A stretch of 64,000 bases of DNA from the NCBI GenBank assembly GCA_015062495.1, contig SUUN01000001.1, positions 223,069-287,068 on the forward strand, in the 5' to 3' direction. Shown here piece after piece: positions 4,574-37,286 of the stretch (the stretch's first letter is position 1; each line of letters opens with the position of its first letter). The notes under the pieces were generated by a model. The model ran no database searches. It was not told the origin of the DNA and saw only the letters and a program-made list of their open reading frames with translations. This DNA is from Alphaproteobacteria bacterium. GTDB lineage: Bacteria; Pseudomonadota; Alphaproteobacteria; Rs-D84. Both the position numbers and the translations under genes were made by a program.

Positions 4574-6193
4574 TTACATCATGCCGGGCATGCCACCAGA
4601 CATTTGTGGATTGGCCGGCTTTTCATCCGGAATTTCAGTCATAACCGCGCCGGTGGTCAGCATTACACCCGCAGTAGATGCCGCGGCGGCGATTGCGGTT
4701 TTTACAACCTTGGCCGGGTCAATGATGCCCGCCGCCATCATATCGACATATTCGCCGGTCTGGGCGTTGTAACCAAAATTGTAATCGGATGCATCCATAA
4801 CCTTGCCTACGACAATTTCGCCAGATGTGCCAGCGTTTTCAGCAATCTGGGCGCATGGCGCGATGATTGCGCGACGAACGATGTCAATGCCGACATCTTG
4901 GTCAGAATTTGCGCCATGTAAATCGTTCAGGGCCGATGTGGCGCGCACCAATGCAATACCACCACCGGCAACAATGCCATTGGACACCGCCGCGCGCGTT
5001 GCAGCCAACGCGTCGTCAACGCGGTCTTTCTTTTCTTTGACCTCTACTTCGGTCATGCCGCCAACCTTGATAACGGCAACACCACCAACCAATTTAGCCA
5101 GACGTTCAGACAGTTTTTCACGGTCATAATCGCTGGTTGTCGTGGAAATTGCGTTGCGAATTTCATCAGCACGGGCGGCGATTGCGGTTTTGTCCCCTGC
5201 CCCGTGTGCCAATAATGTTGAATCCTTGGACACAATAACTTTCTTGGCCGAGCCCAATACCGCCGGTGTAATGTTTTCAAATGTCATGCCCATATCATCG
5301 GAAATAACTGTGGCCCCCGTCAGAATTGCGATGTCTTTTAACATTTCTTTGCGACGGTCGCCATAGCCAGGTGCTTTGACTGCGCAGACTTTCAAACCGC
5401 CACGCAGACGGTTCAAGACCAATGTTGCCAAGGCTTCGGATTCGACATCTTCGGCGATAATCAACAATGGTTTACCAGACTGGGCAATCGGTTCAAGAAT
5501 TGGCAATAATGCCTGCAGGCCTGTGATTTTCTTTTCAGACACCAGGATTTGCGCACCGTCCAATTCCGACAACATTTTTTCACTGTTGGTGACAAAGTAT
5601 GGCGACATGAACCCCTGGTCGAATTGCATACCTTCGACAACATCGATTTCTGTGTCCAGACCCTTGGCCTCTTCAACGGTGATGACGCCTTCTTGGCCAA
5701 CGCGCGCCATGGCGTTTGCGATTTTTTCGCCAATGTCCGCATCGCCGTTCGCAGAAATTGTCGCAACCTGGGCGATTTCCGCACTGTCACGAACCGGGCG
5801 GGCGTGCGCATCAATGTCGGCAATAACCGCGGCGGTTGCCAGGTCAATACCGCGCTTTACATCCATTGGATTCATGCCAGCGGCGATTACACGGCGACCT
5901 TCGCGGATTAATTTTTGCGCCAGCACTGTCGCAGTTGTTGTGCCGTCACCGGCATCATCGCCGGCCTTTTTCGCAACTTCTTGGACCATGCGGGCACCGA
6001 TGTTTTCCGCCGGGTCTTTCAGGGATACCGCGCGCGCCACGGTAACACCGTCCTTGGTCGCGACGGGTGCGCCGTATGATTTTTCAATTACAACTGTGCG
6101 CCCCTTGGGCCCCATAGTGATTTTAACCGCGTTCGCTAATTTATCGACGCCCGCCGCCATTTTATCTGTATCAAAAACAATTTCTTTTGCCAT
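4574..6193 (-). CDS. groEL: 60 kDa chaperonin GroEL
   Basis: The 539-residue chaperonin subunit forms the double-ring ATP-dependent folding machine. The start [10 protein letters not shown], the ATP-binding [10 protein letters not shown] segment near residue 86, GGGIALVRA near 413 and the C-terminal GGMPGMM tail are all canonical. It follows groES by 12 bp in the usual groES-groEL order. Length and motifs are normal and no second-copy features are evident. Expression is probably heat-inducible from the promoter in front of groES. Confidence 0.98.
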
Positions 6194-14887: not shown

Positions 14888-14951
14888 AGATATGAGACAG
14901 GAAATATGAGATAGTAATACTTAGCTAAACTTTTATTTATCGAAGTAATTG
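14886..14951 (+). repeat. terminator-linked dispersed repeat, copy 1
   Basis: Directly after the alaS terminator: GAGATATGAGACA-type units, then ATACTTAGCTAAAC and TTTTATTTATCGAAG. Related copies occur near 32039, 37256 (reverse), 46479 and 59511, always beside a terminator. Confidence 0.6.
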
Positions 14952-14977
14952 AATTTATGGCGAGTATGGCGTATAAT
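14949..14977 (+). promoter_or_regulatory. promoter of leader RNA A
   Basis: TTGAAT (14949-14954), 17-bp spacer, TATAAT (14972-14977). It predicts transcription from about G14984 into the structured leader. Confidence 0.75.
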
Positions 14978-14983
14978 GGATAT

Positions 14984-15193
14984 GTCGCCGGGTGTTCCGG
15001 TGATGGGGTGTCAAGACCCGTGCCAACGCGTCGACGGACATATTTAGTGACGCATGTATGCGTCTTTTTTGTTGACCAAGACGTAAAAACTCCTGAACCC
15101 GGTTGGGTCAGGAGGGTTGCGATATATATAAATAAGCACACAATTCGTTGGATTGTCTTGAACCTCCTGACCACCTGATATTGGTGGTTTTTT
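14984..15193 (+). ncRNA. structured leader RNA A with two terminator-like modules
   Basis: This is the gene-free stretch between alaS and the secreted-protein gene. The 5' domain is a three-way junction: helix GTCG/CGAC (14984-14987 with 15032-15035), hairpin CCGG-GTGTT-CCGG and hairpin GGGT/ACCC (15006-15019). GACGC at 15049-15053 can pair upstream with GCGTC (15028-15032) or downstream with GCGTC, forming a terminator with a T-run ending at 15070. The second module has a stem CTCCTGA/TCAGGAG (15090-15114). TCAGGAGG (15108-15115) can instead pair with CCTCCTGA (15163-15170), which abuts a second terminator, ACCACC/GGTGGT plus six T. The element is homologous to leader B (37000-37214, minus). 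No known riboswitch class was recognised. Confidence 0.7.
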
Positions 15194-15249
15194 AATTACC
15201 CAATTATGCAGGGGCAAAATTGGGATTAACAAAATTCAGGAGTGAAAAG

Positions 15250-15756
15250 ATGAAACATTTTTTACCAATAACAATATCAATGTTGTTAATACCAGGTGTG
15301 GCCAGCAGTATCGTTACTGGAATAACGTGCCAAACCGGTCAGGTTTGCTGTTACTATAACAATGCAGGCGGATGTATGAAATGCGCTGCGGCGGGTTCTT
15401 GTCCCACATGCACATGCCCATTAAATACGGATAATGATCCGACCATATGTTCCAGCACGGAATGGACCGCCAATGGGACCGAGGGAACATATCACCGTTG
15501 TTTACAGGTACAAAGTAACGCTGCACTGGAAATATGCGGATGTCAATATAGTTGTATGCCGGGGTATTATATGACATACGACGCAACCGCAGCCAAAAAC
15601 ATATGCGTCAGATGCCCGTCTATAAATGGCGTGTATGGTACAACGGTTGATCATAACATCAACGGTATTACAAGTTGCTATATCCCCACAGGGACAAGCC
15701 TGAGCGACGACACAGGAACGTTCGAATTTACAAGCCAGTGCAATTACACAAACTAA
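15250..15756 (+). CDS. secreted Cys-rich protein of unknown function
   Basis: A 168-residue protein starting at 15250, 7 bp after CAGGAGTG. A signal peptide (about residues 1-20) is followed by a mature part with many Cys in CxxC-like spacings. Near the C-terminus it has ITSCYIPTG and the motif DDTGTFEF followed by Cys, also found in the two Cys-rich proteins encoded near 28.3 and 36.3 kb. Disulfide-bonded export to the periplasm or surface is likely, but no function is known. Expression probably passes through leader RNA A, which ends 56 bp upstream. Confidence 0.75.
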   Translation: MKHFLPITISMLLIPGVASSIVTGITCQTGQVCCYYNNAGGCMKCAAAGSCPTCTCPLNTDNDPTICSSTEWTANGTEGTYHRCLQVQSNAALEICGCQYSCMPGYYMTYDATAAKNICVRCPSINGVYGTTVDHNINGITSCYIPTGTSLSDDTGTFEFTSQCNYTN

Positions 15757-16466: not shown

Positions 16467-18638
16467 TTATTCCTTTACAATTTCTGCGCCGGTTTTCTGG
16501 TCAATGCCAACCATGGACATACGTGTTTTGCCACGTTTGTCGGCACCCAGATAACGAACATAGACTGTATCGCCTTCTTTGATTTTTGTGTCTTCGATTT
16601 TTGCGATACGTTCGCCGGTGATTTCAGAAATGTGAACCATGGCTTCGAATCCGTTCATGATTTTTACAAACAGACCAAAGTCTTTCATACCAGATACAGT
16701 ACCTTTGTAAATCTGGCCAACTTCTGGTTCGGCAACAATGTCTTTGATGCGTTGGATTGCGTTGTCCGCATCTTCGCGTGTTGTTGCCATGATTTTGACT
16801 GTACCGTCATCTTCCAGGTCAATAATCGTGTTTGTTTCACGAACCAGGGCCTGAATTACAGAACCACCCTTGCCGATTACGTCACGAACCTTGTCTGGGT
16901 TGATTTTCATGGTGTATGCCTGGGGCGCGTATTCAGAAACAGATGCGCGTGGCTTTTTAATCGCCTTTTCAATTTTGCCCAGGATGTGCATACGGCCGTC
17001 TTTGGCCTGGGCCAAGGCACGTTCCATGATTTCAAATGTAATGGATGTGATTTTGATATCCATCTGTAATGCGGTAATACCCTGGTCTGTACCGGTCACT
17101 TTGAAGTCCATGTCGCCCAGGTGATCTTCGTCGCCCAAGATATCGGTCAAGATTGCGTAATCGTCGCCCTCTTTAATCAACCCCATTGCGATACCCGCAA
17201 CCGGACGCTTCATAGGAACACCACCGTCCATCATCGCCAATGTTGCACCGCATGTTGTTGCCATGGACGATGAACCGTTCGATTCCAAAATGTCCGACAC
17301 AATGCGGATTACATAGTCAAATTCACTGCGACTTGGAACCATTGGATGAACCGCACGCCATGCCAAGTTACCGTGACCAATTTCACGACGACCTGGGGAT
17401 TTCAAGCCTTTGCATTCACCAACGGAATAGCCAGGGAAGTTATAGTTCAGGATGAAATCGCGCTCTTCAGCCCCGTCCAGGGATTCGATTGGCAATGCGT
17501 CTTTGCCACCGCCCAATGTCAATGACACCAGGGCCTGGGTTTCGCCGCGTGTAAATAACGCAGAACCGTGTGCGCGTGGCATAACACCCAATTCGATTTC
17601 AATCGGACGTACCGTTTTATTATCGCGACCGTCGATACGTGGTTTACCCGCCAAGATATTGCCACGCATAATGCGTGCCGTCAGGTTTTCAACCACTTCG
17701 TCCGCCCATGATTCCAATGTGGACGTGGCACGTTCGGATTCTGGGAATAATTCTGGGATACGCGCCTTGGCATCGGCATGGATAGATGCCAATGTTTCCA
17801 AACGAACCAGTTTTTCTTTGATTTGCAGGGCCGCTTCTATTGCAGGTGCAAATTGTTCAAAGTCAGATTCCATTGTCAACTGTTCTGGTGTTTTTTCAGG
17901 TGTCGCCCAGCGTTCTTTGCCCGCGCGTTCCGCCAATTCGTTAATGGCGTTGATAACCGCCTGTTGCGCGTCAAAACCAAATTTAACCGCGCCCAAAACA
18001 GTCTTTTCATCCAGTTCACCAATTTCAGATTCAACCATCAGAACGCCGTCTTTGGTTGCAGCAACAACCAAGTCCATTTCAGAACTTTCTGTTTCTTTTT
18101 TCGATGGGTTCAAGATATATTTGCCGTCGGCATAGCCAACACGCGCCGCACCGATTGGGCCCTGGAATGGAACACCAGACAATGCCAATGCCGCAGATGA
18201 TGCAATCATTGCCAAAATGTCAGGCTGGTTCACTTTGTCATATGAAAATACCTGGGCAATAATTTGAACTTTGTTTTTAAATGTTTCTGGGAACAGCGGA
18301 CGAATTGGACGGTCAATCAAACGCGCAGTTAATGTTTCGGCGGTTGATGCCTTGCCTTCGCGGCGATCGCGTGAACCAGGAATGCGACCCGCGGACGCAA
18401 ACTTTTCCTGGTAATCAACGGTTAATGGGAAGAAATCTTGGCCTTCGACGGCAGCCTTTTCGGCGCAAACCGTTGCCAGCACCATTGTTTCACCCAATGT
18501 CGCCAAAACAGAACCGTTCGCCTGTTTCGCCATACGACCCGTTTCCAAGCGCAGTGTTGTATTGCCATATGGAATTTCAACCACGATTGGATTGTTTAAT
18601 TTAGCCTGTTCATCTTTCTTGAATAAACCAAATACCAT
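16467..18638 (-). CDS. pnp: polynucleotide phosphorylase
   Basis: PNPase is the phosphorolytic 3'-5' exoribonuclease of RNA decay. The 723-residue protein starts at 18638 behind a GGAG site. It shows two RNase PH-like cores separated by the helical domain. Conserved features are FFPLTVDYQEKFASAG, SPGRREIGHG and GSSSMATTCG, then VIGKGGSVIQ of the KH domain (about residues 566-580) and a C-terminal S1 domain (YKGTVSGMKDFGLFVKI). Length is normal. rpsO is not upstream, unlike in many bacteria; the gene has its own promoter and a structured leader. Confidence 0.97.
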   Translation of the reverse strand: MVFGLFKKDEQAKLNNPIVVEIPYGNTTLRLETGRMAKQANGSVLATLGETMVLATVCAEKAAVEGQDFFPLTVDYQEKFASAGRIPGSRDRREGKASTAETLTARLIDRPIRPLFPETFKNKVQIIAQVFSYDKVNQPDILAMIASSAALALSGVPFQGPIGAARVGYADGKYILNPSKKETESSEMDLVVAATKDGVLMVESEIGELDEKTVLGAVKFGFDAQQAVINAINELAERAGKERWATPEKTPEQLTMESDFEQFAPAIEAALQIKEKLVRLETLASIHADAKARIPELFPESERATSTLESWADEVVENLTARIMRGNILAGKPRIDGRDNKTVRPIEIELGVMPRAHGSALFTRGETQALVSLTLGGGKDALPIESLDGAEERDFILNYNFPGYSVGECKGLKSPGRREIGHGNLAWRAVHPMVPSRSEFDYVIRIVSDILESNGSSSMATTCGATLAMMDGGVPMKRPVAGIAMGLIKEGDDYAILTDILGDEDHLGDMDFKVTGTDQGITALQMDIKITSITFEIMERALAQAKDGRMHILGKIEKAIKKPRASVSEYAPQAYTMKINPDKVRDVIGKGGSVIQALVRETNTIIDLEDDGTVKIMATTREDADNAIQRIKDIVAEPEVGQIYKGTVSGMKDFGLFVKIMNGFEAMVHISEITGERIAKIEDTKIKEGDTVYVRYLGADKRGKTRMSMVGIDQKTGAEIVKE

Positions 18639-36261: not shown

Positions 36262-36289
36262 AACAACCGCCATTTGGCGGTTGTTTTAT
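36262..36289. terminator. bidirectional terminator between sodB and the Cys-rich pair
   Basis: AACAACCGCC-ATTT-GGCGGTTGTT stem with T-run right and A-run left. Confidence 0.88.
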
Positions 36290-36564
36290 TGATACATCAT
36301 ACACGCTTCTGAAAATTCATATGTACCAGTTGCGTCTGTGTACGACACACCCGCCGGCGCGTACATTATACAAGCACCAACTGGATTTGCCACCAGGCAC
36401 GATTCCGCGTCACCCGCAGAACTTGTGCCCGCAGGACAGCTGGATCTGACCAGCATATACCGTTCGTTAACTGCAACGTATCCTGTGGGACATTCGGTCG
36501 CAGGCGCAATAGCCACAGCAACCGATGGCACGATGAAACAAAATATCATTAAAATTGTTTTCAT
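36286..36564 (-). CDS. small secreted Cys-rich protein
   Basis: A 92-residue protein with a signal peptide (MKTILMIFCFIVPSVAVA) and five Cys in the mature part. It ends with PAGVSYTDATGTYEF followed by Cys, the motif shared with the genes at 15.3 and 28.3 kb. The start at 36564 follows GGGGGG. It lies 10 bp after the preceding secreted-protein gene and shares its leader RNA. Function unknown. Confidence 0.7.
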   Translation of the reverse strand: MKTILMIFCFIVPSVAVAIAPATECPTGYVAVNERYMLVRSSCPAGTSSAGDAESCLVANPVGACIMYAPAGVSYTDATGTYEFSEACMMYQ

Positions 36565-36574
36565 AATCCCCCCA

Positions 36575-36970
36575 CTAGTCCGAAAATGATGCCAGAATAA
36601 AACTGCGAAATTCAGATTCATTGACCATTGAAGTGGCGCACGCATGAGAGCAACTTTGATGTCCGGTCGCAACATGGCTCGCCCATGCCCATTTTGTAAC
36701 AACCGGGGATACAATTTTGCACCAACATTCGGTTGTGCCATTGGCAGAACTTACGCTGTCTGCGACATCATCGTCAACATTGTCAGCAGCGACCGCAATA
36801 CCCTGGATGGGCAGTCTATTGCAAGTGACAGACCAATCATAAGACGAAGTTTGGAACACAGGGTCAGCACATGTGATTTCTGGGGTTAAAGGGACACATT
36901 TTTGCACCGCGGCAAATGTGGGAACAGTTAAAATTGCGCCAAGCGCAGTTAAAAATAATTTGGTTTTCAT
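36575..36970 (-). CDS. secreted Cys-containing protein of unknown function
   Basis: A 131-residue protein with a signal peptide (MKTKLFLTALGAILTVPTFA). The mature chain contains paired Cys (QKCVP, EITCAD, SVTCNR, ECWCKI, QSCSHAC) and ends in a hydrophobic-acidic tail. The start is the ATG at 36970, 10 bp after AGGAG; an in-frame TTG at 36979 is too close to that site. It is first of a two-gene unit with the downstream small Cys-rich gene and is preceded at 30 bp by leader RNA B. No family was recognised. Confidence 0.68.
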   Translation of the reverse strand: MKTKLFLTALGAILTVPTFAAVQKCVPLTPEITCADPVFQTSSYDWSVTCNRLPIQGIAVAADNVDDDVADSVSSANGTTECWCKIVSPVVTKWAWASHVATGHQSCSHACATSMVNESEFRSFILASFSD

Positions 36971-36999
36971 GTTTTTCAATCTCCTGTTTATTTGTTTGT

Positions 37000-37214
37000 A
37001 AAAACAAAACCACTGTTTTTACACGAGTGGTCAGGAGGCTGATAACAATTGCTAGAATTGCGTGCTTATTCGATATATTCGCAACCCTCCTGACACCAAT
37101 ATCAGGAGTTATTTCCGTCGCAAGAATAAAAAATAGCGCGTCGCATGCGCCATAGGTTTATATTCCGACGCTAGCACAAGGGTTATCAGGCCCCATTATG
37201 GTAACCACCATAAC
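37000..37214 (-). ncRNA. structured leader RNA B, homologue of leader A
   Basis: This is the gene-free stretch upstream of the Cys-rich pair. It reads like leader A: a 5' hairpin (ATGGT-GGTT-ACCAT), a GGG/CCC hairpin, GTGC(T)AGCGTCG, and a GCGTCG/CGACGC pairing before a T-run. CTCCTGA/TCAGGAG follows, then GGGTTGCGA-AATAAGCAC and a CAATT/AATTG hairpin. CCTCCTGA at 37031-37038 is complementary to TCAGGAGG and abuts a CCACT/AGTGG terminator with a T-rich tail. The inner hairpin covaries with leader A (ACAAT/ATTGT there). Confidence 0.7.
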
Positions 37215-37220
37215 ACATTT

Positions 37221-37249
37221 ATTATACAAGATAAAATAATATTGTGCAA
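37221..37249 (-). promoter_or_regulatory. promoter of leader RNA B
   Basis: Minus strand TTGCAC (37244-37249), 17-bp spacer, TATAAT (37221-37226); predicted start near 37214. Confidence 0.75.
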
Positions 37250-37255
37250 CAGTTT

Positions 37256-37286
37256 GATAAATAAAAGTATTCATATCTCAAAAAAA
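37256..37286 (-). repeat. terminator-linked dispersed repeat, short copy
   Basis: On the minus strand TTTTTTTGAGATATGA is followed by ATACTTTTATTTATC, a shortened version of copy 1, directly after the accDA terminator. Confidence 0.5.

Follow-up and report, generated by a model that had tools for sequence, protein, structure and literature searches.

Terminator leaders before secreted Cys-rich protein genes of gut Alphaproteobacteria, a probable cis-regulatory variant of the phage-immunity RNAs

Background

The closest described systems to the leaders considered here are the phage-immunity RNAs c4, CI and IsrK, together with sRNA-Xcc1. In phages P1 and P7, the c4 locus (RF01695, RF03163) runs from a promoter through the addresses a1 and b1 and a hairpin with a T-run to a stem enclosing two hairpins, with b' located in a loop and a' between the last hairpin and the closing strand; the c4 precursor is processed by RNase P. 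The record of phage P1 annotates a1, b1, C4, a2, b2 and icd-ant in this order, and its a1 and a2 are identical (TTGACAG). sRNA-Xcc1 (RF02221), an RNA of Xanthomonas integron cassettes, was reportedly described by Chen in 2011 as a trans-acting sRNA. It is an 88-nt RNA with mapped ends (PMC2996969), and RF02221 has been located in integron cassettes, where it precedes symE (PMC12444791). The CI RNA of phage P4, once processed, terminates transcription through pairing with sites both upstream and downstream; supplying IsrK in trans in Salmonella increases the level of the long transcript about 8-fold (both PMC4825925). The open-access literature yielded no link of sRNA-Xcc1 to the c4 mechanism and no report of the leader family described here.

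This family is represented by two copies, A and B, in the window, which is the whole 64,000-nt stretch of contig SUUN01000001.1 (assembly GCA_015062495.1) that was analysed; coordinates count from its first letter. The family is c4-like in layout and is a homologue of sRNA-Xcc1, yet it falls within the Rfam definition of neither. It shares with c4 of P1 and P7 the whole order given above, including the positions of a' and b', and differs in having an intrinsic terminator and an additional strand, x, and in lacking both a2-b2 at the ribosome-binding site of the next gene and an antirepressor operon. (Membership in C4 was considered and rejected: there is no match to the C4 or c4-a1b1 models, both of which are matched by the positive control, P1.) As with P4 CI, an immunity RNA that acts on termination of its own leader (PMC4825925), the family is predicted to act on its own terminator. 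With IsrK of Salmonella Gifsy-1 (RF01394), the short form that ends at a first terminator, it shares the position of the first T-run. It differs from CI and IsrK in that its isrK match is weak (14.8 bits at 14985-15070 of copy A, far below the cut-off of 50), in that no prophage context is seen, and in that there are dozens of copies per genome.

Two homologous leaders in the window

A sequence-only reading of the window had described two homologous leaders on opposite strands, and the homology does extend along the whole leader, with a mean column identity of 76% between A and B. Two instances of the core CAGGAGGGTTGCGA-N-AATAAGCAC are present in the window, against 0.00 in shuffles; in the 0.9-Mb genome from which the window comes, the core pattern has 8 occurrences and a reversed-pattern control has 0. 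Strands x, y and z, the AATAAGCAC core and the second terminator were all found as that reading had them. The promoter that it gave for both copies, TTG-N17-TATAAT, is correct for A and wrong for B, which has TGCACA-N16-TATAAT, and what it took for a three-way-junction-like 5' domain is actually composed of the hairpins P1 and P2, the address b1 and the stem P3. The features are as follows.

Copy A, its gene and their signals
14949..14977, +, promoter TTGAAT-N17-TATAAT (-10 at 14972-14977), 10/12 consensus matches
14984-15193, +, leader, with the RNA start at about 14984
14985..15003, +, P1 hairpin, TCGCCG / CGGTGA, paired in 97.9% of cells of the family alignment
15005..15020, +, P2 hairpin, GGGG-loop-CCCG
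T15009 with A15140, +, long-range pair
15011-15016, +, address a1, the 5' strand of K1, TCAAGA, in the P2 loop
15023..15028, +, address b1, the 5' strand of K2, CCAACG
15029..15083, +, P3 stem, CGTC/GACG, and first T-run (IsrK-like position)
15049-15064, +, inner hairpin within P3
15090..15096, +, strand x, CTCCTGA, the 5' arm of P4 (anti-antiterminator)
15106..15115, +, strand y, GGTCAGGAGG, common to P4 and P4'
15116..15138, +, P5a stem, GTTGC / GCA-C-AC, around the conserved A-rich loop GATATATATAAATAA
15141..15155, +, P5 hairpin, CAAT/ATTG, 100% paired across the alignment
15146-15151, +, b', the 3' strand of K2, CGTTGG, in the P5 loop
15156..15161, +, a', the 3' strand of K1, TCTTGA
15163..15172, +, strand z, CCTCCTGACC, the 3' arm of P4'; its ACC also begins the terminator
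15169..15193, +, intrinsic terminator, GACCACC..GGTGGTTTTTT
15237..15242, +, SD of gene A, CAGGAG, complementary to CTCCTG within strand z
15250..15756, +, gene A, 168 aa, 17 Cys, signal-peptide-like start, without a Pfam match

Copy B, its gene and their signals
36981..37230, -, leader, with the homologous part at about 37214-37001
37226-37221, -, -10 box
37213-37196, -, P1
37189-37183, -, P2 loop with a1
37176-37171, -, b1
37108-37102, -, strand x
37093-37086, -, strand y
37055-37050, -, b'
37045-37039, -, a'
37038-37029, -, strand z
ending at 37001, -, terminator, its final hairpin read from the sequence
36986-36981, -, SD of gene B
36575..36970, -, gene B, 131 aa, 7 Cys, signal-peptide-like start, without a significant Pfam match

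A second small gene with a signal-peptide-like start lies after gene B (36286-36564, -) and is probably on the same transcript.

Distribution of the family

Two covariance models were used: R1, built on the 3' module, and R2, a multi-type model of the new family only. Where the sequence-only reading had seen just two copies, the window's genome holds 22-24, R2 finding 22 at E <=5.3e-6 plus two weaker ones. In a scan that scored 24 candidates per genome, R1 matches 167/183 genomes of the window's family; the highest count in the family is 46 places in one 1.1-Mb genome (G159). The search by covariance model that had been proposed with the earlier reading has produced further homologues in 13/13 genera of the family. 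R1 also matches a second family of order Rs-D84, and R2 matches 18 genomes of class Alphaproteobacteria beyond that order. Scanning for the exact pattern returned 68 stretches from named genomes, and nearly all of their titles refer to alphaproteobacterial MAGs obtained from the guts or faeces of animals; nearly all sequences in the analysis are metagenome-assembled genomes. The exact core was found in none of the viral contigs of IMG/VR.

Genes downstream of the leaders

The exported Cys-containing genes that the sequence-only reading placed behind the two leaders are there as genes A and B. A signal-peptide-like start is present in 76/77 type-1 genes vs 27% of background ORFs (the call uses simple hydropathy rules rather than SignalP), and Cys makes up 7.6% of the residues of type-1 proteins vs 1.8% of background. 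The gene starts 31-92 nt after z in all type-1 copies measured but one (136 nt, at a contig end). A Pfam scan of 13 proteins behind type-1 leaders found no family above its cut-off. Judged by eye, leaders of other types precede secreted proteins, XRE-like HTH proteins, a glycosyltransferase-like protein and others, and several fetched relatives have the same layout before Bro-N/KilA-N-like, XRE-like, pilin-like or lipoprotein-like genes.

The SD sequence CAGGAG is found at 36/69 type-1 genes, at 4/46 genes behind other types and at 14/1016 background ORFs. Because it is complementary to CTCCTG in z, an additional, translational layer of control is possible.

Pseudoknots K1 and K2

The type-1 set comprises 69 copies of less than 90% identity, taken from the exact-pattern stretches and from the window's own genome. 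In most of them the order is -10, P1, P2 (GGGG-loop-CCC), a 6-7-nt strand, P3, x = CTCCTGA and y = (GG)TCAGGAGG, followed by the P5a stem with its A-rich loop, P5, a 6-nt strand, z = CCTCCTGACC, the terminator, the SD and the gene; in most aligned copies a TATAAT-like -10 box lies at a constant distance from P1. In an all-against-all covariation scan of these copies, two pseudoknots are among the strongest signals: K1, formed by the P2 loop (a1) and the strand after P5 (a'), and K2, formed by the strand after P2 (b1) and the P5 loop (b'). Together they account for most of the covariation. Both are absent from the sequence-only reading, which rightly noticed a small covarying hairpin (P5) but missed that its loop pairs with the 5' domain and that the next 6 nt pair with the P2 loop.

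In a 64-sequence alignment (A3), K1 has 100% standard pairs, with 5/6 of them changed on both sides, K2 is 94% paired, and P1 is 98% paired with changes on both sides at all 6 pairs. P5a has three pairs, each changed on both sides and 100% paired, and the long-range pair between the base after GGGG and the base before P5 is T-A in 59 and C-G in 10 of the 69 copies. The covariation score for the whole structure is 0.469, vs 0.149 +/- 0.007 when shuffled and <=0.091 when slid; kinship among the copies inflates covariation counts, which the slide and swap controls address, although they are no substitute for R-scape. A further test used 73 copies, drawn from the genome of the window, from its genus and from 12 further genera. 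A complement of the K1 strand lies within a P2-like loop in 60/73 copies; exchanging strands among copies gives 0.02%. Of these 60, 55 have K2, vs 4.2% after the exchange. Because K1 and K2 are part of no covariance model, these tests are independent of the alignments.

K1 contains no G-U pair in 384 cells (A3 columns 36-41 with 220-225), and P1 contains about two dozen in the same sequences. This restriction to Watson-Crick pairs may reflect a constraint on the specificity of K1.

Exclusive helices and terminators

Within type 1, strands x, y and z are nearly invariant and hence uninformative. Among the other versions they change together: in additional copies that R1 found in the window's own genome, x/y/z are CTCCAAC/GTTGGAGG/CCTCCAAC, CTCCTGC/GCAGGAGG/CCTCCTGC, CTTCCGA/TCGGGAGG/CCTCCCGA and CTCCAAA/TTTGGAGG/CCTCCAAA, with others besides. 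Over 8 versions of y, P4 (x with y) has its full 7 bp in 63/73 copies and >=6 bp in 72/73, and P4' (y with z) has its full 8 bp in 71/73, a count favoured by the fitting of the 73-copy alignment (A5) to a model containing P4', which does not favour P4, K1 or K2. With strands swapped between versions, full pairing is 12.5% for P4 and 5% for P4'. Since x, y and z change jointly in >=8 versions, both x-y and y-z are supported. In 72/73 copies, 1-2 additional bases would let P4' reach the beginning of the terminator stem, and the pair G169-C236 (A3 columns) is kept in 63/64.

This three-strand covariation bears out the proposal of the sequence-only reading that a cis leader with mutually exclusive helices precedes a terminator, as does the energy balance of the two helices: P4' minus P4 (plus terminator) is computed as -0.5 +/- 3.2 kcal/mol, with P4' the lower in 33/68, as would be expected of a bistable switch. 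Like an attenuator, the leaders have an intrinsic terminator and a conserved alternative helix that overlaps its 5' arm. Of the two termination points first proposed, the second is general in type 1, where a hairpin and T-run equivalent to the final terminator follow z in nearly all copies, but the first T-run is found in 53/64 copies and is missing in 11/64, which means that not every copy has the first termination point.

CC follows z in 75/78 copies, and CCA in 62/78, which is compatible with RNase P processing and nothing more. A small ORF starting at a TTG in the core (TTGCGA...) was rejected by eye, as its spacing from AGGAGG is one base and its early stop is absent in some copies.

Relation to sRNA-Xcc1

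Scanned against Rfam with an E threshold of 10, copies A and B gave only chance-level matches; RF02221 gave no match at this threshold, and its gathering score of 53 bits was not reached. However, divergent relatives pass RF02221 (L236 at 66.2 bits and L234 at 54.1), and the window's own genome contains an RF02221 match of 49.5 bits (E 2.9e-8, below the cut-off of 53) at G000:C1:300683-300773, a copy in which x, y, z and the terminator are all present and which is followed by the gene for a 246-aa secreted Cys-rich protein. RF02221 matches 55/398 Pseudomonadota genomes, and in the reverse direction, R2 finds 12/24 RF02221 loci at E 1.8e-8 to 4e-3. By these sequence matches, which run through intermediates in both directions, the window family is homologous to RF02221. 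The statement of the sequence-only reading that no known family is present, and the comparison with Rfam that it proposed as a check, thus come out differently at two distances: the window copies themselves match no Rfam family by sequence, yet homology to RF02221 emerges through their divergent relatives.

The likeness to sRNA-Xcc1 includes the 3' module, i.e., a y-z stem enclosing P5a (AAUA..GAAUAA loop) and P5, as in the RF02221 consensus structure, and also upstream a1/b1 addresses with K1 and K2, which lie outside the Rfam model. A complement of the K1 strand (>=6 nt) is present upstream at 28/30 RF02221 loci and within 75 nt downstream at 17/30 (24.7% and 11.1% with swapped strands), and a complement of the K2 strand is present upstream at 25/30 and downstream at 18/30 (15.2% and 7.9%). 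The downstream addresses frame the SD of the next gene, e.g. TCGAAAAGGAGAATAGTAGCCATG in L248, a locus for which no similar phage records were found. The a1b1/module/a2b2 layout of the RF02221 loci is that of a1b1/c4/a2b2 in phage P1, and the genes behind them encode SymE, Bro-N, KilA-N, P22_AR_N or pRha proteins in 9/10 scanned. RF02221 may be misfiled as a trans sRNA, with a target that could be predicted from the ribosome site of the next gene; the comparisons suggest that only half of the RNA is covered by many RF02221 annotations, which would leave out the upstream addresses as well as the copies at the ribosome site that directly predict the target. Address pairs upstream and downstream in the manner of c4 were observed at many RF02221 loci (L237-L266).

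The two families differ in that sRNA-Xcc1 has downstream a2/b2 around the SD, which the window family is without, whereas the window family has strand x, a U-run terminator and secreted Cys-rich protein genes. Strand x in RF02221 loci is at chance level, not above shuffles, so the terminator with its x/y/z exchange looks like an alphaproteobacterial innovation. The best reading of these sequence comparisons is that the window family is an alphaproteobacterial variant that would have lost the downstream addresses and acquired a bistable terminator for locus-specific attenuation.

Addresses and their targets

Within genomes, 0/199 address pairs are identical, and between genomes 19/2727 are; with 1.27 collisions expected within genomes and 0 observed (P = 0.25), this uniqueness is not significant alone. 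In G159, 33/35 addresses are distinct. Two leaders of this genome, L272 and L273, have identical addresses and similar genes, and they are likely to be a recent duplication caught before the addresses diverged. The near-uniqueness of addresses within genomes suggests locus-specific feedback.

Combined a and b target sites elsewhere in the genome are at a mean of 34.8 observed vs 34.9 swapped, and downstream addresses in the window family are found at 4/69 loci for K1 (3.0 expected from swaps) and at 0/69 for K2. Since the downstream a2/b2 are absent and the genome holds no extra sites, any action in trans has only a1/b1 as its target.

Proposed mechanism

The leaders are probably a cis-regulatory variant of the c4/CI/IsrK phage-immunity RNAs, with sRNA-Xcc1 as the nearest relative, in which K1 and K2 would steer a terminator switch between P4 and P4' with feedback in trans. 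The helices, exclusive pairings, pseudoknots, terminator, mostly unique addresses and gene class come from the sequence comparisons given above; the ON/OFF assignment, the processing and the trans feedback are proposals, the direction of the switch being modelled from stacking geometry only.

In the proposed mechanism, the nascent leader would expose a1, located in the P2 loop, and b1, located after P2, as addresses of 6-7 nt each, and the 3' module (y, P5a, P5 with b', a' and z) would then pair back on them as K1 and K2. Because no linker separates K1 from z and P5 is directly adjacent to K1, the two pseudoknots should set z beside y and favour P4' in a stack P5-K1-P4'; P4' would capture the ACC/CC at the start of the terminator stem, which would allow the gene to be read. 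(In its 8-bp form P4' can coexist with the terminator and is therefore not necessarily an antiterminator.) When K1 and K2 are not formed, x would keep y in P4, z would be free, the terminator would fold and transcription would stop. As address pairs are particular to each copy, the module that a locus releases by processing or termination should compete for a1/b1 on newly made transcripts of that locus and switch it off, in a manner that would resemble the CI RNA of phage P4; a short RNA of the IsrK kind, with its end at the first T-run, could act oppositely and turn the locus on.

A purely cis-acting riboswitch or protein-binding attenuator, in which the P5a loop GA-AUAUAUU-GAAUAA binds a small molecule or protein that chooses P4 or P4' and the likeness to c4 is one of ancestry only, is unlikely, though some observations favour it. 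The P5a loop is nearly invariant in 13 genera and in all the main versions of the switch, despite having no address in it; a single regulon (secreted Cys-rich and HTH proteins) spread over 22-46 sites in each genome is what a global signal typically controls; and the downstream addresses are absent. However, RF02221 has the same loop before phage antirepressors and SymE, so the loop may be a structural or processing signal, and a global ligand leaves the locus-specific addresses unexplained. Riboswitches for c-di-GMP, a class in which a genome has numerous leaders with terminators ahead of genes for exported or surface proteins, resemble the family in this way of working only. They were rejected as candidates: there is no Rfam match, the addresses are locus-specific, and canonical GGDEF c-di-GMP synthases are absent from 6/6 genomes, with positive controls. 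A search for ANTAR antitermination gave no match in the genomes, and its control genomes were silent too.

It is quite improbable that the functional product is a stable trans-acting sRNA, as sRNA-Xcc1 is annotated, with the gene transcribed by terminator leakage only. The length of the 88-nt sRNA-Xcc1, with its mapped ends, does fit that of the 3' module (PMC2996969), and a promoter with a terminator is a complete sRNA unit; but the distance from z to the gene (in all but one type-1 copy) leaves little room for a second promoter, a single gene class with signal-peptide-like starts dominates downstream, and the addresses differ at nearly every copy, with no genome-wide enrichment of a+b targets. 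A mobile or cassette-borne repeat that spread with its genes, by integron- or prophage-like hitch-hiking, and whose structure acts at the DNA level is highly improbable, for although RF02221 is known on integron cassettes (PMC12444791) and the copies are many and dispersed, far-diverged copies preserve the helices by compensatory change, P1 tolerates G-U on the transcribed strand, promoter, terminator and SD keep a constant order, the exact core is in no viral contig, and inspection showed no array or flanking repeats.

Implications

The cis-regulatory variant favoured here joins three things that have been filed apart: the c4/CI/IsrK immunity RNAs, the 'trans-acting' sRNA-Xcc1, and a leader family of genome-reduced gut alphaproteobacteria. 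It offers a testable model of RNA control of a large secreted-protein repertoire in bacteria with genomes of about 0.9 Mb, and the insulated address pairs could double as orthogonal RNA switches. Possibly, although this is doubtful, a phage-immunity RNA has been domesticated into dozens of insulated bistable switches per small genome, each feeding back on its own gene through a two-part code, so that the secreted Cys-rich repertoire would vary without a protein regulator.

Additional observations

Two near-identical genes for XRE-like HTH proteins (MATLLVDA.YFGNYLRMARNS...) are each found behind a type-2 leader in the window's own genome, at L138 about 4886-5101 and L160 about 18101-18316. A short distance ahead of the leader promoters (14925-14945 and 37240-37275 in the window) there is a motif, CTTTTATTTATC, which is often part of a palindrome similar to GATAAA..TTTATC and occurs within 350 nt upstream of 13/23 own-genome copies, with 57 matches genome-wide; it could be a shared transcription-factor site.
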